Shown piece after piece: positions 1,169-52,243 of a stretch of 56,290 bases of DNA. The notes under the pieces are model-generated. The model made no database searches. It had not been told where the DNA came from and worked only from the letters and a program-made list of their open reading frames with translations. The stretch comes from a virus. Position 1 is the stretch's first letter; each line of letters starts with the position of its first letter. The translations under genes were made by a program, and so were the position numbers. The stretch covers positions 1 to 56,290 of the IMG/VR virus record IMGVR_UViG_3300030104_005137. One strand, given 5' to 3'.

Positions 1169-1851
1169 TAATCCTCACCACTCCATTCAGGTTGGTCGAG
1201 AAACACAGGTGTGTGTCGGATAGAGTCCTCTTCTCGTCTATCTACCATAAATACTCTGTATCTCAGACGTGAATCCTGTTCCGAACCATCCTCGTAAGAG
1301 TTGAACTTTTCTATCTCGCCATCATTCCATACGAACGAAGTATACGAACGTACAACGTGGTCGCTACCACCATCTAACCTATGTGCGTTGTTCCAATACT
1401 CGGGGAACTCAGCCCCTCTACGTTGTAAGTCATACCACATATTATATACTGCCATATTACTTGGTTCTCTTCTCGCACGTGCACTAGTGACCGCATTCCA
1501 CAGGTTCGATGCTCCAAATCCACCTAAGTGATAGAAGAACTTCGTGTCTGTAAGTTTAACCGGTATACGTTCACCACGTGGACTACATCGTCTTGGGTAT
1601 GATTTACTATGTAGTAAAGCGTAGCCCTTGCCCTTGTTACTCCAACGTTCGACTGCTTTAATCATCTTGTGAGGCATTATAGGTAGCTGTGAGCGTTGCC
1701 ATTGAGGAAAGTGCAACATATACGGCTGTCTATCCTCGAACGCAAATAAACCTGTCAGGTCACGCCCACCGTGTGGATAGAAGAATGCGTTTGCATCATC
1801 TAAGTTTTCTGTCCAACTCTTGTCGGCATCTAGTAACATTGTCCTCGTCAT
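1168..1851 (-). CDS. hypothetical protein, 227 aa, next to GATase II
   Basis: The family is not recognised. The protein is soluble, rich in Arg and aromatic residues, and lacks a visible nucleotide-binding or membrane motif. It starts with an ATGA overlap on the stop of the class II glutamine amidotransferase gene (1848), so the two are probably translated in a coupled way. I infer a shared process with the amidotransferase and amidoligase from this arrangement only. The protein could supply or recognise their substrate, but that is a guess. Confidence 0.8.
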   Translation of the reverse strand: MTRTMLLDADKSWTENLDDANAFFYPHGGRDLTGLFAFEDRQPYMLHFPQWQRSQLPIMPHKMIKAVERWSNKGKGYALLHSKSYPRRCSPRGERIPVKLTDTKFFYHLGGFGASNLWNAVTSARARREPSNMAVYNMWYDLQRRGAEFPEYWNNAHRLDGGSDHVVRSYTSFVWNDGEIEKFNSYEDGSEQDSRLRYRVFMVDRREEDSIRHTPVFLDQPEWSGED

Positions 1852-3098
1852 TGATGGTCCTCTACGTACTTAACGATTTCTTGGTATTTAACTGTATAGT
1901 TGGAAACGTCACCTTTTCCTATATCATCCGTAGTAACCCACGCATCTGCATTTAGATAGCCTTCCAAGTATGTACCATACGCAATGGGAACATCACGTAG
2001 AACTACCTGTTGGTGTCTATCTGAGTATGAAGATACGCAATCTAATATCTCGTGTGAAAATTGTCCATTGAATATAATATCCTCATCGTATACGCAGAAG
2101 TTTTCTATGTCCTCAAGCACTCCCGAAAATATATCATCTACGTCAGTGCTAAACTCAGACGTTAATGAAGTCATAGCTTCTTTGGAAGCTACACGTTCTC
2201 TACGTTTAGTTTCGTTCTTCGATATCGAACAGCTATCGCTCACATCATCGAGTGAATCCCAATCATAGTAGTTGTAGCCATTTGCGTAGCCACCATAGTA
2301 TGTGACTCCTCCTCCTTTATATACGTAGGCTTTAGGTGTGAAGTCCTCTACATTTACAATGTCCATACCATTGTCTCCTTTATATACTACGTTGTATATA
2401 ACACCACCTTCGGGTGATGCTATGTGCCTTGCTTTAAATAGGTCTGCCCCGAATAGTCCATCGCTTTTTATATACCCCATATCCTCTAAGCTGGACTTAG
2501 ACGTGCTACCGTATATACTTATGTTGTCCTGTGCATCTAAAGTTTTCATCATATAGAAACTTGTGCTATTGTTCTTCAAGTAATACAGGTTCTCTGAGCT
2601 GTGCATATATATGAATATCGAGTATGACCCCGTCAATTCCTCTACGCTTTGCTTGATTGCGTCAAGCTCCTCACTGCCCTCACGTATGTAGTGGTCTACT
2701 AACGCAGGAACAATCGCACTATCTGTAACAGCCTTGTAGTCAAAGCCATACTTAGCTTTCAATTCACCATCGTTATTGATGATACCGTTATGCACAATCG
2801 TGCAGGTATCATTCGAGAACGGGTGGTTGTTCTCATTGTCCTTTTCACTACCCTGCGTAGCAAGTCTATTGTGACCCACTAACCAATTACTTGGTAGTGC
2901 GGACAATACGTGCTTGATGCTCAAGTCCTTTTTGTCCTTGAGGTCATCGTATGCTTTGCCTACCTTCCATTGGTAGGAACTGCTGAATATACCGGTTGCG
3001 TCTGCGTTCGACCTAGAACCCTTCTGCAACATTTCAATGAAGTTATTTACGTTGTCATTGGCCAACGAATCGCTCATCACGAATTGTATCTCACACAT
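1848..3098 (-). CDS. class II glutamine amidotransferase (Ntn hydrolase), 416 aa
   Basis: The protein starts MCEIQF, placing Cys2 at the position of the N-terminal nucleophile of type II glutamine amidotransferases (GlmS, PurF and AsnB family). Other family marks follow in order: GHNRLATQG (residues 75-83), NHPF (91-94) and HNG (103-105). The N-terminal half is therefore a glutaminase domain that releases ammonia from glutamine. The C-terminal half (about 230-416) has no recognisable synthetase or sugar-isomerase domain, so the ammonia acceptor is unknown. AAGGAGGTGA lies directly upstream of the ATG. The gene overlaps by 8 bases the amidoligase-like gene before it and by 4 bases the 227-aa gene after it. 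The amidoligase partner is the best hint to function. Confidence 0.87.
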   Translation of the reverse strand: MCEIQFVMSDSLANDNVNNFIEMLQKGSRSNADATGIFSSSYQWKVGKAYDDLKDKKDLSIKHVLSALPSNWLVGHNRLATQGSEKDNENNHPFSNDTCTIVHNGIINNDGELKAKYGFDYKAVTDSAIVPALVDHYIREGSEELDAIKQSVEELTGSYSIFIYMHSSENLYYLKNNSTSFYMMKTLDAQDNISIYGSTSKSSLEDMGYIKSDGLFGADLFKARHIASPEGGVIYNVVYKGDNGMDIVNVEDFTPKAYVYKGGGVTYYGGYANGYNYYDWDSLDDVSDSCSISKNETKRRERVASKEAMTSLTSEFSTDVDDIFSGVLEDIENFCVYDEDIIFNGQFSHEILDCVSSYSDRHQQVVLRDVPIAYGTYLEGYLNADAWVTTDDIGKGDVSNYTVKYQEIVKYVEDHQ

Positions 3099-4439: not shown

Positions 4440-4907
4440 TCACTTTGTGAAGAGGTTTGAATTAACCGTAAAGCCATTCTCAACAGGCCACCAATAAGGG
4501 TAGCTCTCTATCTCCTGCGTAGACAGAATGGCATCGTCTACGAAGAGTCCTGCGTAGAAATCGTAATCCTTACGCAGTAGGTTCACACGGTGTGACTTGT
4601 GTAACTCAGGTTGGTGTAACCACGTAGGTATACTTAGCTGAGAGTAATTCACATCGTAGAACTCCATCGTGTTCTTGTATCCACGTGACTTCCATTCGTC
4701 AATCATCACGTTTACATACACACGTAGTGCTTGTTCGTAACCTTTCCACATCTGCGTAGCAGGGTGATTGACCCACCCCTTGTGCTTGTAGTCAGGTGAG
4801 AGTGCGTTGAGTATTTGCATACCCTCCACTCTTTGCTTACCGAGTCGCCGGTAGTCTAACGCTTGTGCAGACCTTACAAAGTCTGCGTATGGTAGGAATG
4901 TTTGCAT
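4440..4907 (-). CDS. pyrimidine-dimer DNA glycosylase-family protein, 155 aa
   Basis: The N-terminus (MQTFLPYADF, LDYRRLGKQRVE) followed by WVNHPATQMWKGYE, EWKSRGY, HRVNLLRKD and YPYWWP matches a widespread small family in bacteria and phages that databases label pyrimidine dimer DNA glycosylase/endonuclease V-like. The motif order and 155-residue length fit. The assigned activity (repair of UV dimers) comes from the family annotation and is weakly tested for this branch. The ATG at 4907 follows the TAA of a small gene by two bases. A repair role would suit a virus of sunlit water, but that is inference. Confidence 0.7.
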   Translation of the reverse strand: MQTFLPYADFVRSAQALDYRRLGKQRVEGMQILNALSPDYKHKGWVNHPATQMWKGYEQALRVYVNVMIDEWKSRGYKNTMEFYDVNYSQLSIPTWLHQPELHKSHRVNLLRKDYDFYAGLFVDDAILSTQEIESYPYWWPVENGFTVNSNLFTK

Positions 4908-13088: not shown

Positions 13089-13202
13089 ATGAGTGAAATG
13101 GATGACAATGTTGTTGGAAATTGTTGCAATTGCTGCTGCTGTTCTAGGCCTAGTGATAATCCTAGTGATGATAGCTGCGGTTGTAAAACAAGTAAAGAAT
13201 AA
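13089..13202 (+). CDS. Cys-rich microprotein, 37 aa (overlaps an alternative reading of the next gene)
   Basis: The peptide MSEMDDNVVG is followed by seven Cys within eleven residues (CCNCCCC) and later CGC. It could bind a metal cluster or be lipid-modified. The codons (AGT, GAT, AAT, CCT) match neighbouring genes. In the other frame the same DNA encodes a smooth hydrophobic helix that would extend the following membrane protein from a GTG at 13093. The strong GAGGAGG site at 13209-13215 before the GTG at 13225 supports two separate genes. I favour that reading moderately. Confidence 0.5.
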   Translation: MSEMDDNVVGNCCNCCCCSRPSDNPSDDSCGCKTSKE

Positions 13203-13224
13203 ATTACCGAGGAGGAAACCAGAA

Positions 13225-13590
13225 GTGAGGAAAGACACGGCAAGTGAAGGAGTAACATTCAACGACATTTTTATGTTTATGATAGCTGTGCCTTTAGTTC
13301 TACTTTGGGTTGGTTTCGCAGGATTTGTTATACACAGTGGATTGCAGGACGACTCTGTTCTTGAGCAAATAGAAGGATATACAACTTTGATAGCTATATT
13401 AGGTGGGCCAGCCCTTCTAATTATTAAAGATGCTCTGGATGTTTGGAAACAAGAACAAGCTGAGAAGACTGCGTTCTATAAGGTAAAAGCACAAGCTGTT
13501 ATCGATTATAACGACCACGCTCAGAAACAAGCTCAAATGATAGAAGCTAAAGCACAAGAACAAGAACATAAAATGGAAAACAAGAAATAA
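13225..13590 (+). CDS. membrane protein with two TM helices, holin-like, 121 aa
   Basis: From the GTG at 13225 (9 bases after GAGGAGG) the protein has hydrophobic segments at about residues 13-36 (IFMFMIAVPLVLLWVGFAGF) and 52-68 (TLIAILGGPALLII), then a long charged amphipathic helix ending Lys-rich. An in-frame GTG at 13093 would add 44 residues including a third TM helix and give 165 aa. Size and topology fit a holin or an internal head membrane-interacting protein. The placement within head genes leaves the role open. Confidence 0.65.
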   Translation: MRKDTASEGVTFNDIFMFMIAVPLVLLWVGFAGFVIHSGLQDDSVLEQIEGYTTLIAILGGPALLIIKDALDVWKQEQAEKTAFYKVKAQAVIDYNDHAQKQAQMIEAKAQEQEHKMENKK

Positions 13591-13857: not shown

Positions 13858-14040
13858 ATGGCTAAGAAGACTAAGTCTAGAGTTAACGAAGCTGGAAACT
13901 ATACTAGACCTACTATGAGAAAGATGTTATTCAATAAAATCAAATCAGGTGGAAAGGGAGGTTCTCCAGGACAATGGTCTGCAAGAAAAGCACAAATGTT
14001 AGCTCGAGAATACAAAAAACGCGGTGGAGGTTACCGTTAA
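13858..14040 (+). CDS. basic microprotein, 60 aa
   Basis: This highly basic protein (MAKKTKSR..., ending KKRGGGYR) contains a Gly/Ser-rich centre and a C-terminal helix. There is no recognised family. The stop overlaps the next ATG (TAATG), continuing the coupled series. Similar short Lys/Arg-rich proteins are common beside head genes in marine tailed viruses, usually without assigned function. Confidence 0.7.
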   Translation: MAKKTKSRVNEAGNYTRPTMRKMLFNKIKSGGKGGSPGQWSARKAQMLAREYKKRGGGYR

Positions 14041-14285
14041 TGGCTCTAAAAAAATCTCAAAAGTCTCTTCAGCGATGGGGAGTACAAAAATGGGGTTACG
14101 TCACAAAGGCTGACGAAAAAAAGCCTAAATCAAAAAGAGGACGTTACCTTCCTGAGAGTGTTAGAAAGGGTATGACAGCGGCAGAAAAAGCAGCATCAAA
14201 TCGAAAAAAACGTAAAGCTGGCGGAGTCGGTAGTCGTGCTAGATATTCTAAAAAGGTAAGAAAAGCAGTAAGGAGAGCTAAATAA
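14040..14285 (+). CDS. basic protein, 81 aa
   Basis: The start at 14040 (MALKKSQK) overlaps the previous stop. Two thirds of the protein is Lys/Arg/Ala/Ser, with a motif GRYLPESVRKGMTAAEKAASNRKK that resembles a short helical DNA-binding segment found in phage and nucleocytoplasmic virus basic proteins. No enzyme motif is present. It is TAATG-coupled to the next gene. Confidence 0.7.
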   Translation: MALKKSQKSLQRWGVQKWGYVTKADEKKPKSKRGRYLPESVRKGMTAAEKAASNRKKRKAGGVGSRARYSKKVRKAVRRAK

Positions 14286-14548
14286 TGGTTACATACAGAG
14301 GAGAAAAATTTTCAGGTTATAATAAACCAAAGAAAACGCCTAACGCAAAAAAATCTCACGCAGTTTTGGCGAAAGAAGGTGGCAAAGTGAGACTCATTAG
14401 ATTCGGCCAACAAGGTGTATCTGGAGCAGGTAAGCGAACAGATGCTAAGTCTAAAGCTAGAAGAAAGTCTTTCAAAGCTAGGCACGCTAAGAACATAAAA
14501 AAGGGGAAGATGTCCGCAGCTTACTGGGCAAATAGAACAAAATGGTAG
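14285..14548 (+). CDS. conserved-looking basic phage protein, 87 aa
   Basis: The C-terminal segment (SFKARHAKNIKKGKMSAAYWANRTKW) is of a type I associate with small proteins near the head genes of many marine tailed phages. They carry no experimental function. The whole protein is basic and Gly/Ser-containing. It overlaps the following gene by 7 bases. Confidence 0.72.
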   Translation: MVTYRGEKFSGYNKPKKTPNAKKSHAVLAKEGGKVRLIRFGQQGVSGAGKRTDAKSKARRKSFKARHAKNIKKGKMSAAYWANRTKW

Positions 14549-44319: not shown

Positions 44320-46191
44320 TTATATATCGCATTTGTCACCACTACAAGCTAATTCTTTGGCACCTTCTGTGTTATCTTCGGTTTCATACTTACTGAGTTG
44401 ACTATAATCGATAGTCGTATTGTATCCGTAAGCCATATATTCTTCCTTTGTTATCTCTTTGTAGGGGGCTAGTTTATACTGCCCACCATCATAAGGAAGG
44501 AAAGATACACCATTAATAATATCCCAATTTTGGTATACCCAGTTACCGACTTCAAACCATTCATCATCTTTAACATATACAGTAAGAGAAGCATTGTGTT
44601 CACACCAGTGTTCTTGAATTCTTTTATACAGTTCTAGTTGCTCAATAGCTCCGATATCTCGCCTAGTGAGACTATCACTAGGAGAACTAACAGCATATTC
44701 GCAAACATACGTAGTAGCGAGTCCATCTTTTTGTCCAACTTCGGGATAGAACTTGACTCCCTGGTCTTTCAACATATGAAAGAGAGGGTCAGTAGCCGAA
44801 ATTCTATACCGGCGTAGATAGTATTTGGAATAACGTGGATGCATACCCGATGCTGAGTTCACTAATTGACTGACTGTACCACTTGGTTTGATGCAAGTTG
44901 TAGCCTTTGAGTGTTGTACACCCAGTGTGTCAGCAGCCTTGCGAGAAATACGCAATACGCGCATTTTAAGGGCCTTTAAAGCGTCCGAAGTCAGTGCCGG
45001 TAGGTTATCACATATCCCAGTCAAACTGACGCCTAAAAGCCGTTCTACGTCACAATTCTTTTTCCACTTGGGTCTTAGGTATGGAAAGTCAGTAAATGTA
45101 GATTGTATAACTCCCATCCACGCAGCTGTCTCTACCTTATCAAGTAATGTATCTAAGTTATCGTAATCTTTTACTACTATCTCTGAAAGATTACAGAACT
45201 CCTGGTCTCTCAGCATAATCTCACCACAGGGGTTAGTTCCCTCTATTAAGTTACCATTGCGTCTATTAGGTGAGGAGTTGCGTGCGCCTTCTAGATTAAA
45301 TATACCGCGCTCTCCTGTACCTGAAGCTGCTAACGTAGCCCATTCTTTGAGAAACTCTACCGCTGTAGGTTTAGATTCATATACTGCTGAGTTGTTGGCC
45401 ATTGCTCTCCTAAGAGGAAAGGGCCATATCTTAGCGTCTCTCATCTTATCATCATCTAAGTCTGATAATGATATCTGAGAACTTCTGCGAACTCCTCCTG
45501 ATACAACTATCTCTGCTATCTGATTACAGATATCGTGACAGTCTATCGCTCGAAGTTTTCGTCCTTGTGCTTTACCAAAGACTTCTCTTATAAATTGATG
45601 CAGTCTTATAAGTGGTGCTGGACCAGAGGAACGACCTCCCATTGTCGCAAGACGCGCACCTTCTGGTCTTAACTCCGAATAATCGAAGTGTATATGTTTA
45701 CCCTCGTACAGAGAGTTCATAAGCACCTTTACCGAGTCGGCCCAACCTTCTTTGGAATCAGGAACCACATAATCTGGTAACTCTTCTCCTGAAAGTTCAG
45801 GCACGACTGGAAGTTTGTTGACGTGTTTTTCCGAAACACTAAACCCAAAGCCGGTACCACACATTAGTATATGCAAGCACTCTGCAAATGATTCTATAGA
45901 ATCTATATTTGCAAATGAGCAATTGTATATACACGTGTTGTCTTTTTCGGCAGGTGGTCCAGCAGCCCATAACATACGCATACTTGGCATAACCTCAAAT
46001 GAGGTAACATACTTTTTTATCTTACGTATTGTCTTTTTAGGTATATCAGGTTGATATTTAGTTATGAACCCAATATATCTTTCGACCGTTTCAGGCCACG
46101 TTTCTCTACGTTTTTTATCATCTATCCATCTTGAGTATGTCCTAACGTAGACAAACTCTGAACACTCATTCGGAAAATTTACGTCAACCAT
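44320..46191 (-). CDS. adenosylcobalamin-dependent (class II) ribonucleotide reductase, 623 aa
   Basis: It reduces ribonucleotides to deoxynucleotides for viral DNA synthesis. Typical marks are Cys91 (YNCSF), the finger-loop NPCGE at 321-324 (radical Cys322 and Glu324), FCNLSE (Cys333) as second half of the substrate disulfide, and a C-terminal redox pair Cys616/Cys621 (ACSGDKC). No separate radical-carrying subunit gene is present. The length and motif layout match monomeric B12-dependent enzymes, so host cobalamin is needed. It lies in the replication operon after Hsp20. Confidence 0.92.
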   Translation of the reverse strand: MVDVNFPNECSEFVYVRTYSRWIDDKKRRETWPETVERYIGFITKYQPDIPKKTIRKIKKYVTSFEVMPSMRMLWAAGPPAEKDNTCIYNCSFANIDSIESFAECLHILMCGTGFGFSVSEKHVNKLPVVPELSGEELPDYVVPDSKEGWADSVKVLMNSLYEGKHIHFDYSELRPEGARLATMGGRSSGPAPLIRLHQFIREVFGKAQGRKLRAIDCHDICNQIAEIVVSGGVRRSSQISLSDLDDDKMRDAKIWPFPLRRAMANNSAVYESKPTAVEFLKEWATLAASGTGERGIFNLEGARNSSPNRRNGNLIEGTNPCGEIMLRDQEFCNLSEIVVKDYDNLDTLLDKVETAAWMGVIQSTFTDFPYLRPKWKKNCDVERLLGVSLTGICDNLPALTSDALKALKMRVLRISRKAADTLGVQHSKATTCIKPSGTVSQLVNSASGMHPRYSKYYLRRYRISATDPLFHMLKDQGVKFYPEVGQKDGLATTYVCEYAVSSPSDSLTRRDIGAIEQLELYKRIQEHWCEHNASLTVYVKDDEWFEVGNWVYQNWDIINGVSFLPYDGGQYKLAPYKEITKEEYMAYGYNTTIDYSQLSKYETEDNTEGAKELACSGDKCDI

Positions 46192-47596: not shown

Positions 47597-49849
47597 TTAG
47601 AACAGTCTCAGCTGTTTTGTTCCGCTCCTCAGACCCATATCATCCCAGTCAAAAACACCGGCTATATCTGACATAGTTCTAACCAATCTATCCGCGTAGT
47701 AGTCCCTATCAAATTTAACATTCATATCAGTGGTTTCTATGTATGGTTCTACTTCCATCGGAGTTTGCTTAGAGTTAGATACTACCCAACTTATTTTTGT
47801 ACCAGGAAGCCAAGGATATCCTCGGGCCTGAAGTTTAGCAGCAGCTTGAACACCCGCGTTTGAATCGGGATTTACATACTCGCTTGGAGACCTGACACTC
47901 TTGGTAACTATCAAGTCTTCTAAATCAACTTCTCCATTCTTTATTTCTTTTACTGCTTTTGTCACAAGTTTAAGTGCATCATCTGGGCGACTATCTAATA
48001 TTAGACGTAACGATTGTTCTAATACTTCTCGTTGTCTTTTAAATGAGTCACCACGCTTGAGCTCATAACCTTTGACGTAGAATTCTTTTTTGGGCCATTC
48101 TACTGTAGCAGCGTATCGTTTCTTTGCGCCGTGTGTAAAGAAGGAACTTAGAATCTTTTCTAATTCCATTTCTAATCCACGCGCTGACAGTTCTTTGGCT
48201 AATTCGTGAGGGTCATCGTCCGTAAGTTGTACGAACACACTGTCTGTGTCCCCATATATAGTAGTGTAGTTCCTCGAATCTAACTCATCATATACATCCT
48301 GTATACCCTTTCTAGCAAAGGCAGTAATGCTACCACCTATGGATGGGTTAGTAAATCTATAGAAATCACTAGCCATAACTCCATAAAAAGAATTCATAAG
48401 AACCTTGATACTGTATTGCAGTCTATCGTGGTAATCTCCATTCTTTTTTATTTCGAGTTTAGTTGCATCTCTCCATTCCCATAATGATTTGAGAATCTTG
48501 GGAACGATTGATTCTTTGTCCAACCTGAAGTAAACCCCGAGGGGGGAGCGAACGCTATCACCGGTTTCAGTTTTAGTGAATGTTGTTGGACAAATGTTGT
48601 TTTTAATCATAACACTGGGATACATTGATTTAAAATCAAATATACCAACGTTGTGATAAATACCTGGTTTGAAAACCTCAAAGACGGTCGCTCCTTTAAT
48701 TTTCTTAGCCTTGTTGTTCCAATTGTTTTGTGGAACTGCAAAGCCTTTCTTATCGAAACGTCTAATGAGTAGGGAATCGACGATGCGAGAAGTAACGGGG
48801 GCAAACGAATGTTCTAGGGGCAAGTCACTTGCAACGCTCAAAGCCATAGCTTTAGATATAGATGCAATCTTATCGTGCATAAAAACATCGTAGGTAACCT
48901 TGACATCTTTCTTGCAATACTTGATTACAGATAAACGTCTGTTAGCCCACTCCTCTTCTATGCGAGATGCATCAACGTTGTCTTTAGACCCGACACCCAG
49001 AAGTTCACCCACGAACCCAAGTGATTCCTGTATAGGTTTGAGTTCTTGTTTTACTTGTTGCCAAGTGTCAACGAATATTCGTCCTGACGCGAACCAAGAC
49101 TTTATTCTTCGCTTGTTATCCTCACGCATCCACGGCTCATCGCCCTCTCTACCAATTCCCATCTCTACATTTAGAGACCTAGCTTTCTTCATAAGAACTG
49201 GCATATCAAACCCATTACTATTGTAACCGGTTATGATGTCAGGGTCTACCGCGTTTATATACTCGACGAAGTCCTCTATCATTTTAGCTTCGCCACTAGC
49301 GTTGGTAAATACAACACCAGCGTTGTCGTTTAGTTGCGCAGCTATGCAGTACATTTCCTTAGTACGGAGACTACATTCAATATCAAACGTTACAACGTCT
49401 AAGTTAACATCGAATGATTTACATCTCTGTATACTTTGTACCGAATAACTACTATCGTGTTCTACTTCTACAAATGCTCCTAAATCATTGTCGTACAGGT
49501 ATCGTAACTGATACAGTATGTCTGCACTAAAAACTGTTCTACCTCTGTTTATCAGTTTCTCCCTGAGACGAGGCATATGTTTAGGATGCCGTAAGTAGAC
49601 TTTAACACAGTCGTACTTCTCCTGATAGTGTTCTAACTCTACGTTTTCTCCTATCTGTGCACCTGCCATTGCAAGTAAACGACGGTCGTGTGGGGAAGGT
49701 CTAGCTAGGTAAAAGTACGCTTTAAAGTTTTCCTGAAAGAATACTTTAGTTTCTCCATATTCAGTCTTACCGTACAACCTAATGATAGGCTTGTCTGACA
49801 CAGGGTCAGTAAAATAATCTACATTTGTCAAGAATACTTGCGTTCTCAT
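47597..49849 (-). CDS. polB: family B DNA polymerase, 750 aa
   Basis: This is the replicative polymerase with proofreading. Exonuclease motifs: FDIE (155-158), GYNSNGFD (208-215) and YCKKD (311-315). Polymerase motifs: DFKSMYPS (405-412), KVLMNSFYG (482-490) and YGDTDS (532-537). All catalytic acids are intact. The C-terminus ends KQLRLF, similar to short clamp-binding peptides, so it may use the host PCNA; no viral clamp gene is seen. It lies next to a Cas4-like nuclease and a resolvase. Confidence 0.96.
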   Translation of the reverse strand: MRTQVFLTNVDYFTDPVSDKPIIRLYGKTEYGETKVFFQENFKAYFYLARPSPHDRRLLAMAGAQIGENVELEHYQEKYDCVKVYLRHPKHMPRLREKLINRGRTVFSADILYQLRYLYDNDLGAFVEVEHDSSYSVQSIQRCKSFDVNLDVVTFDIECSLRTKEMYCIAAQLNDNAGVVFTNASGEAKMIEDFVEYINAVDPDIITGYNSNGFDMPVLMKKARSLNVEMGIGREGDEPWMREDNKRRIKSWFASGRIFVDTWQQVKQELKPIQESLGFVGELLGVGSKDNVDASRIEEEWANRRLSVIKYCKKDVKVTYDVFMHDKIASISKAMALSVASDLPLEHSFAPVTSRIVDSLLIRRFDKKGFAVPQNNWNNKAKKIKGATVFEVFKPGIYHNVGIFDFKSMYPSVMIKNNICPTTFTKTETGDSVRSPLGVYFRLDKESIVPKILKSLWEWRDATKLEIKKNGDYHDRLQYSIKVLMNSFYGVMASDFYRFTNPSIGGSITAFARKGIQDVYDELDSRNYTTIYGDTDSVFVQLTDDDPHELAKELSARGLEMELEKILSSFFTHGAKKRYAATVEWPKKEFYVKGYELKRGDSFKRQREVLEQSLRLILDSRPDDALKLVTKAVKEIKNGEVDLEDLIVTKSVRSPSEYVNPDSNAGVQAAAKLQARGYPWLPGTKISWVVSNSKQTPMEVEPYIETTDMNVKFDRDYYADRLVRTMSDIAGVFDWDDMGLRSGTKQLRLF

Positions 49850-50879: not shown

Positions 50880-50956
50880 AGCAGTGTCGCCCACGCGAGA
50901 AGTATGGCCAATCCTACAGATAGGATTGTAATCCATTCGGCTTCACTGAAGTACAT
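50876..50956 (-). CDS. single-TM microprotein, 26 aa
   Basis: MYFSEAEW is followed by a hydrophobic helix (ITILSVGLAILLAWATLL). It is bounded by TAATG at the start and ATGA at the end, so it is very likely translated despite its size. It could tether a partner to the membrane or act on it. The function is unknown. Confidence 0.6.
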   Translation of the reverse strand: MYFSEAEWITILSVGLAILLAWATLL

Positions 50957-51285
50957 TATTTTGGGCCTTCCTTGCCGTAATATGGGTCATCTTGAATTTT
51001 AGTCTTACCAATAACATTACCGGCGTTTATGTTTGCCATATCGTGGTATGTCTGTAGTGTAGAGTTTAATTCATCAACCCACTTGCTAATTATAGTTTCT
51101 CCAATGCGTTCATCATTTAAGTGAAACTCCATTATCTCTAGTGTCGCTTTAAATTTATCGAAATCGTTCATTCTCTTTCCTCCTTTTCCATCGCACGTAC
51201 AATTATAATGTCCGTGTACACAGTTGCAGACGTATATCTTAGCTGGCTTGAGTGGTTCATTTACTCTAAAACCCTTTATTATCAT
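50956..51285 (-). CDS. protein with small Cys motif and helical domain, 109 aa
   Basis: From the ATG at 51285 the protein begins inside the end of the phytoene synthase-like gene (20 bases overlap). The N-terminal part has C-x-C...C-x-C (CNCVHGHYNCTC), and the rest is helical (FDKFKATLEIMEFHLND). A strong AAGGAGG before an internal in-frame ATG (encoding MNDFDKF) may also produce a 71-residue short form. The family is not recognised. Confidence 0.65.
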   Translation of the reverse strand: MIIKGFRVNEPLKPAKIYVCNCVHGHYNCTCDGKGGKRMNDFDKFKATLEIMEFHLNDERIGETIISKWVDELNSTLQTYHDMANINAGNVIGKTKIQDDPYYGKEGPK

Positions 51286-51871
51286 CTGCCACCTGTAAAT
51301 ATTTTTTGTTTGCCTCGACAATTGGTCCGCGTAAATGTTTAGGTATAAACTGCAAACCCGTAGAAGCAAACGTCAGCTCATTAATAAACATACGAATGTA
51401 AAAGTTTTTATCTTCACCAATATAGTGATATCCTTTAGATACATCGTCGTCATAATCCCTGACAAAGTTTATTATCTGGTACGCTCTACCTAATGCTCTA
51501 GCGTATTCGTCACCTTCGGGTGAACATCCTAGTATTCTTGAAACCATTAGCCCGACCGATTCACCTGAACCTTTACAATATTCTATCATAGTTGTAGTTG
51601 TGTGTTCTTTAGTTTTTAAATCAGTCAGCATAGCTTGGTGAAAGTCCATAAGCCACTGCCCCTCGAAGTTATGTCTATCACACACTTCGTAGAACTGTTC
51701 TATTATCTTTCTCCATTTCTTGAAATCATTCCAACCGGCATCGCCTTCTACCATTTCGTCTATGACCCTCAGATATGCATACAGTTTATATATGTCTTTT
51801 CTAATATTCTTAGGCCATTCTTGTACACATTCAAAGAATGTCGTGCTGTACTTTTCCATTATTTCTTTCAT
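51266..51871 (-). CDS. compact phytoene/squalene synthase-family protein, 201 aa
   Basis: The family (head-to-head isoprenyl synthases) condenses two prenyl diphosphates. Seen here: YSTTFFE...YKLYAYLRVIDEMVEG with the first Asp-rich motif (DEMVE, 38-42), YCKGSGESVGLMVSRILG (98-115; compare family YCxxVAGxVGLMxxxxLG), and the second motif QIINFVRDYDDDVSKG (132-147) with Asp139/Asp143. All key residues look intact, but usual members have about 270-340 residues. This one is short between the motifs and at the end. The ATG at 51871 has AGGAGG 6 bases upstream; longer in-frame starts lie in the previous gene. Possible products are phytoene or squalene for host membranes or carotenoid/retinal. It could also be a non-catalytic binder. 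Confidence 0.82.
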   Translation of the reverse strand: MKEIMEKYSTTFFECVQEWPKNIRKDIYKLYAYLRVIDEMVEGDAGWNDFKKWRKIIEQFYEVCDRHNFEGQWLMDFHQAMLTDLKTKEHTTTTMIEYCKGSGESVGLMVSRILGCSPEGDEYARALGRAYQIINFVRDYDDDVSKGYHYIGEDKNFYIRMFINELTFASTGLQFIPKHLRGPIVEANKKYLQVADDNKGF

Positions 51872-51981
51872 AGTATTCCTCCTATCTGTATATAACATTC
51901 CCTACAATAGGGATTACCATTGACATCTCGGTATCTAACATACTGCGGTGTTAGTTTCCACCCACATAATTTACAGTTCAT
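51868..51981 (-). CDS. zinc-ribbon microprotein, 37 aa
   Basis: CKLC and CREC are spaced about 26 residues apart, with an aromatic-rich centre, a treble-clef or HNH-like knuckle pair. ATGA overlaps mark both ends, coupling it to the phytoene synthase-like gene. The function is not evident. Confidence 0.7.
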   Translation of the reverse strand: MNCKLCGWKLTPQYVRYRDVNGNPYCRECYIQIGGIL

Positions 51982-52151
51982 AATTTCATATCTCTATATT
52001 CGTCGCCTGACAGGAATCCCGTCATTGTTCCTCTTCCTGCTATATTTCTTCTCATATATTTAAGAAAAGCAATGGCTACATATAAACCTTTATCCTTTAA
52101 ATCTTCATTTAAAGATTCTAGATGCCATATTAAATCTTCTATTATTATCAT
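51978..52151 (-). CDS. helical small protein, 57 aa
   Basis: Start at 52151 with GGAGG 5 bases upstream (a longer reading from a GTG at 52163 is possible). The amphipathic helical protein (IIIEDLIWHLESLNEDLKDKG) has no recognised domain. Its stop overlaps the next ATG (ATGA). Confidence 0.65.
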   Translation of the reverse strand: MIIIEDLIWHLESLNEDLKDKGLYVAIAFLKYMRRNIAGRGTMTGFLSGDEYRDMKL

Positions 52152-52243
52152 ATTAACCTCCACATTATATTAACTATGCCACATAATATATATACTCGTA
52201 TCTGACTATTTAATGGAATCTCCATAGGTATGATATCACTCAT
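52148..52243 (-). CDS. microprotein with hydrophobic C-terminus, 31 aa
   Basis: MSDIIPMEIPLNSQ is followed by IRVYILCGIVNIMWRLI, a possible membrane helix. ATGA overlaps at both ends support translation in the coupled series. It is otherwise unrecognised. Confidence 0.5.
   Translation of the reverse strand: MSDIIPMEIPLNSQIRVYILCGIVNIMWRLI

Follow-up and report, generated by a model that had tools for sequence, protein, structure and literature searches.

A compact squalene/phytoene synthase homologue in the genomes of putative archaeal tailed viruses

Introduction

A viral genome in which one short open reading frame resembles the enzymes that make squalene and phytoene raises the question of whether so small a protein could still join two prenyl diphosphates, and what such an enzyme would do during infection. 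The genome is IMG/VR record IMGVR_UViG_3300030104_005137, analysed here over its whole stretch of 56,290 nucleotides (the window). An earlier note, made from the sequence alone, had read the frame as a compact phytoene/squalene synthase homologue, perhaps of an archaeal tailed virus. Here we follow that reading through profile searches, viral relatives, structural models and the surrounding genes.

Results

Family membership

The frame encodes a member of the squalene/phytoene synthase superfamily. PF00494 matched its product with E=2.5e-24 and 86.8 bits (gathering cut-off 26), aligning protein residues 6-154 with profile positions 2-175 of 263, and the profile also scored above its cut-off in 21 of 22 related virus records, all but a 5.5 kb fragment. 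A phmmer search of the PDB gave CrtM (5iys) as the best match, with phytoene and dehydrosqualene synthases among the solved matches. The family named in the earlier note is thus borne out by the PF00494 search it had proposed; the YC-x-x-SGESVG block that it described is found in the protein, which at about 90 residues under CrtM (PDB chains of 287-293 aa) is compact, as was claimed. Its statement that both Asp-rich motifs are kept was slightly generous: the second motif stands (N135FVRDYDDD143, that is N135-x3-D139-x3-D143), but the first reads D38EMVE42, which is DxxxE and not the strict DxxxD.

Scores against the NCBIfam equivalogs were far under their cut-offs (HpnD 56.9 against 278.6, HpnC 50.1 against 250.45, CrtB 33.4 against 550, squal_synth 18.1 against 286.75), so we do not file the protein as an orthologue of CrtB, HpnD, HpnC or squalene synthase. 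It matched no PHROGs family, no relative was found among INPHARED phages, and the BFVD viral structures gave no match at E <= 0.001. The start codon was placed at 51871 because the MKEIM start is kept in relatives and is immediately preceded by AGGAGG; an in-frame ATG 27 nt upstream, giving a protein of 210 aa, is not conserved among relatives and was rejected.

Among cellular proteins, haloarchaeal and actinobacterial enzymes annotated as phytoene/squalene synthases have the GSAxxVG-x-MM and NFxRD blocks in common with the viral protein. The cellular forms are only 27-28% identical to it, are longer (324-348 aa), and possess DxxxD, the loop that follows motif 2 and an additional region at the C-terminus. 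In a tblastn search of plasmids, the best E-values among the matches listed belonged to haloarchaeal copies (3e-8 and 4e-8), plasmid-borne examples being those of Natrialba magadii and Halocatena salina. In the tree the viral synthases form their own branch apart from cellular forms, with support of 100/99.

Relatives, selection and gene movement

Scans of IMG/VR recovered 20 loci with intact synthase frames of 198-228 aa and seven more, giving a viral set of 28 proteins from the window and 27 other contigs. These fall in two virus lineages, the first consisting of the window, G001, G002, G010 and G013. The family B DNA polymerase (PolB) is 83-99% identical within lineage 1 and about 25% identical to that of lineage 2, and the terminase, AAA protein and HSP20 are 22-38% identical between lineages where detected; synthase identity between lineages is 57-65%. 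The class II ribonucleotide reductase (RNR; 67-69%) and a pyrimidine dimer glycosylase (60-62%) are also far more alike between the lineages than the replication and packaging genes, and a small set of metabolic and repair genes seems to be common to both. Three further proteins (Table 1), one of them a membrane protein and the other two small and very basic, are 63-80% identical between lineages, whereas most adjacent structural genes have no detectable match.

Between the window and G013, both of lineage 1, PolB is 83% and RNR 89% identical, but the synthases are just 59% identical, no closer than synthases taken from different lineages. Such a discrepancy suggests that the synthase gene has moved between viruses. 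A single origin of the synthase in lineage 1 was not rejected by the AU test (p=0.20), so the argument for transfer between lineages comes from these identity contrasts and not from the tree.

Nei-Gojobori dN/dS values of 0.02-0.17 in close pairs place the synthase under strong purifying selection. It is an accessory gene, patchy in both lineages: PF00494 was unmatched in 19 further contigs with a lineage-2-type PolB, which may be incomplete, and the related contigs without it include some of 81.2, 72.5 and 67.3 kb. Lying in a virus genome, conserved across 28 contigs and not universal in its virus group, it has the marks of an auxiliary metabolic gene. That the synthase falls short of cellular enzymes in length, and that the searches made turned up no close cellular relative, might suggest an assembly artefact, or a cellular gene in decay, within a viral contig. 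We consider this hardly credible for a gene that is intact in 27 other contigs, stands in syntenic gene order in the genomes compared, has dN/dS well under 1 and keeps its active-site residues invariant; such conservation refutes it, and the earlier note was right to set an artefact aside.

Gene neighbourhood

The synthase gene is located between the PolB/Cas4-like and AAA genes, in an overlapping run that passes from the 61-aa gene through the zinc ribbon and the synthase to the Cys/His-knuckle gene (Table 1). The coupling to its neighbours in a viral operon, which the earlier note had pointed out, is exact, with overlaps of 4 nt at the zinc-ribbon gene (ATGA) and 20 nt at the next gene; L011 has the identical 4-nt overlap.

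Table 1. Features of the window discussed in the text
Feature	Position	Strand	Basis and remarks
Glutamine amidotransferase class II domain protein	1848-3098		GATase_6 E=1e-10
Pyrimidine dimer glycosylase	4440-4907		
Membrane protein; two small, very basic proteins	13093-13590, 13974-14285, 14285-14548		
Class II (B12-dependent) ribonucleotide reductase	44320..46191	(-)	PF02867; RTPR model
Family B DNA polymerase (PolB)	47597..49849	(-)	PF00136 E=4.8e-46; phrog_262; same direction as synthase
Cys/His-knuckle ORF, 109 aa (CNCVHGHYNCTC)	50956..51285	(-)	Starts 20 nt inside synthase end
Compact SQS_PSY homologue (squalene/phytoene synthase), 201 aa	51266..51871	(-)	PF00494, fold, relatives
Leader with ribosome-binding site (reads MLYTDRRN)	51872-51898		Before synthase
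Zinc-ribbon ORF (CxxC...CxxC), 37 aa	51868..51981	(-)	Translation MNCKLCGW...YCRECY
Small protein, 61 aa (IEDLI..HLE.LNEDL)	51978..52163	(-)	Overlaps zinc-ribbon start; tblastn

Homologues of the 61-aa protein adjoin the synthase in both lineages (tblastn: L012, L014, L019, L021, L025, L028), and the Cys/His knuckle, with which an overlapping gene of its own begins in the window, forms an in-frame fusion with the synthase in L020:8001-8687 and L023:8001-8687. Most lineage-2 viruses encode next to the synthase a protein of 83-91 aa that combines a zinc ribbon with a C-terminal hydrophobic helix; its gene usually overlaps that of the synthase by 4-20 nt, and the protein may be a membrane-tethering partner. 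In L021 (8604-8963) a gene that from its sequence is MazG-like (nucleotide pyrophosphohydrolase) overlaps the synthase end, replacing the zinc-ribbon/hydrophobic-helix gene. The MLYTDRRN leader found before the window synthase precedes a small gene of 57-61 aa instead in L012 (7804-7830), as if short genes were shuffled behind a common leader.

Fold and active site

The AlphaFold2 model of the window synthase, made from an alignment of 16 viral rows, had a pLDDT of 89.4 and a pTM of 0.89. Among solved structures compared by VIA-align, CrtM of Staphylococcus aureus ranked first (Z 22.1, 2.0 A, 196/201 residues), model residues 1-201 superposing on CrtM 11-260; human squalene synthase followed with Z 17 and prenyl elongases with Z 13-14. 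CrtM was again best for a second model with a lineage-2 protein heading the alignment (Z 21.2, 2.6 A, 201/201). The helical core of class I isoprenoid synthases is, as predicted in these models, retained whole, and the structural check that the earlier note had suggested comes out in its favour. The viral protein shares with CrtM (PDB 2zco, 3vjd, 3ae0) an all-helical class I fold along its entire length, at 21% sequence identity.

Residues were mapped to CrtM through a HMMER alignment, in which viral residue n corresponds to CrtM n+10 in the N-terminal half. Eleven of the 13 mapped active-site residues are invariant across all 28 viral proteins, namely the counterparts of CrtM F22, Y41, R45, D48, Y129, Q165, N168, R171, D172, D176 and Y248. 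Since only 46 of 201 positions are invariant overall, this is unlikely to have arisen by chance (about 3 expected; P ~2e-6). Acidic motif 2, (N/D)-x3-D-x3-D, keeps N135, D139 and D143 in 28/28. The roles of some of the mapped residues we take to be those generally established for CrtM. Several others have been named as substrate- or Mg2+-binding in CrtM (PMC13304436). Position 9 of the viral protein is Ser, matching CrtM Ser19, a position at which HpnD has Arg (PMC7839719). Two further positions differ from CrtM: Y131 is replaced by Lys in the window and by Lys or Arg across the viral proteins, and F26, a chain-length residue (PMC13304436), by the smaller V, M, L or T.

Compared with cellular enzymes, the viral alignment is missing three parts: a segment downstream of motif 1, the loop that follows motif 2, and the C-terminus. 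About 50 of the lost residues are internal. The second Asp of motif 1 (CrtM D52) is Glu in 25/28 viral proteins, with DxxxD in the other 3/28, and a pair of Asp/Glu carboxylates four residues apart on the helix of CrtM D48 is present in all 28. Exchanging Asp for Glu is conservative in a metal ligand, and with the active-site residues invariant we reject the motif 1 change as proof of inactivity. The C-terminal stretch bearing CrtM R265, a diphosphate-binding Arg, is gone, and no R265 counterpart occurs in the window synthase, whose chain ends earlier (the structural match stops at CrtM 260). For this reason the protein is filed as a superfamily member and its activity inferred, from the conserved residues. 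The divergent viral relatives L099, L100 and L101 still have both DxxxD and a C-terminal extension, L099 and L101 being 220-225 aa long and the PF00494 match in the L099 genome reaching profile position 246 of 263, which suggests a stepwise reduction of the synthase within viruses.

These features make it probable that the product is a class I head-to-head prenyl-diphosphate synthase, reduced yet still catalytically competent, whose gene archaeal tailed viruses carry as an accessory metabolic gene. The main rival reading is a repurposed phosphatase or binder that would hydrolyse or sequester FPP or GGPP with no condensation, because YisP of Bacillus subtilis (PDB 3we9), itself a shorter, divergent family member, has the same fold yet is a farnesyl diphosphate phosphatase that does not condense its substrate (PMC10148934). 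Its fold is near those of the viral models (Z 20.5 for the window, 19.6 for the second model), and the DxxxE motif 1 and the loss of R265 would suit such a role. We nonetheless regard it as unlikely: residues serving both substrate sites are invariant, including Y98 and Y191, three viral relatives retain DxxxD and the C-terminal extension, and CrtM is at least as good a match as YisP in fold and a better one in sequence, where YisP reaches 15% identity.

Hosts and pathway context

Neither PF00348 (prenyl-diphosphate synthase) nor PF01593 (the amine-oxidase family that includes the CrtI desaturase) was found in the 22 related virus records, in which control profiles matched. Substrate and any further steps would thus be host-made, the virus itself providing, on these searches, a single step. 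A lineage-2 virus encodes an archaeal translation factor, aIF-1A (NF003084, 103.7 bits against a cut-off of 91), and the gene is present in most lineage-2 loci; in L005 (11932-12252) and most others it lies directly downstream of the AAA gene. This archaeal-type factor indicates that the hosts of lineage-2 viruses are, as predicted from their genes, archaea. No aIF-1A was found in the window itself, for which we infer an archaeal origin from shared genes, gene order and a PolB weakly similar to those of haloarchaeal viruses, among others. The archaeal tailed virus of the earlier note is therefore supported by way of aIF-1A in sister viruses, the factor being absent from the window. Scans of cellular genome contigs with the synthase and RNR alignments returned no cellular relative; the peptide patterns used are virus-specific, so these scans cannot show that hosts lack a synthase gene.

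Discussion

In the reaction that we propose, the viral synthase would bind two host-made C20 prenyl diphosphates (GGPP, most likely). D38/E42 and N135/D139/D143 would hold the Mg2+ needed for this, and a 1-1' condensation passing through a cyclopropyl intermediate would yield phytoene; with C15 FPP as the alternative substrate, the product would be squalene or dehydrosqualene. The virus would contribute a single committed step, the one that opens the routes to carotenoids or squalene, drawing prenyl diphosphate from the host. The product might be handed to host carotenoid or retinal enzymes, or might remain in the membrane as an apolar hydrocarbon while GGPP is diverted from ether-lipid synthesis. 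Archaeal membranes are built from GGPP. A C20 substrate is our guess from this supply and from position 16 of the synthase, where the smaller residues at the CrtM F26 position fit the longer chain.

That the synthase is active but specific for C15 FPP, its squalene or dehydrosqualene altering host membrane packing, seems to us rather improbable. The top structural matches are the C30 synthases CrtM and HpnC, though solved C40 synthases are so scarce that this ranking cannot separate C30 from C40, and the best NCBIfam scores are those of HpnD and HpnC, though far under cut-off. Against this, the residues at the F26 position are less bulky than Phe, and the GSAxxVG and NFxRD blocks resemble those of the haloarchaeal and actinobacterial enzymes.

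More speculatively, the roughly 200-residue synthase could work as a switch in its own right: GGPP would be withdrawn from host ether-lipid synthesis and the membrane loaded with phytoene or squalene, or the host's carotenoid or retinal output would rise, with the overlapping zinc-ribbon/transmembrane protein as a partner. This would be a viral lipid takeover of a kind not yet described for archaea, and we offer it as a doubtful but conceivable extension of the proposed condensation activity.

Eukaryotic giant viruses, such as a choanoflagellate virus, carry a multi-gene carotenoid pathway that includes a phytoene-making enzyme, together with rhodopsin. The window differs from these in having one stand-alone gene, in what appear to be archaeal tailed viruses. 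In literature of incomplete coverage, and so as weak evidence, we found no phytoene/squalene synthase described as an auxiliary gene of archaeal or bacterial viruses and, with the same incomplete coverage, no lipid-side auxiliary gene described for archaeal tailed viruses; phytoene is unmentioned both in a survey of archaeal tailed viruses (PMC8651126) and in the magrovirus paper (PMC10160649).

The finding adds a lipid-side auxiliary gene to those of archaeal tailed viruses and suggests that these viruses tap host membrane-lipid and pigment chemistry during infection. If active, the enzyme would be remarkably short for its family, about 90 residues below CrtM, and a test of how much of the C-terminus and of motif 1 the family needs. 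By consuming prenyl diphosphates, such a viral enzyme would act at a single point on the synthesis of both membrane lipids and pigments.
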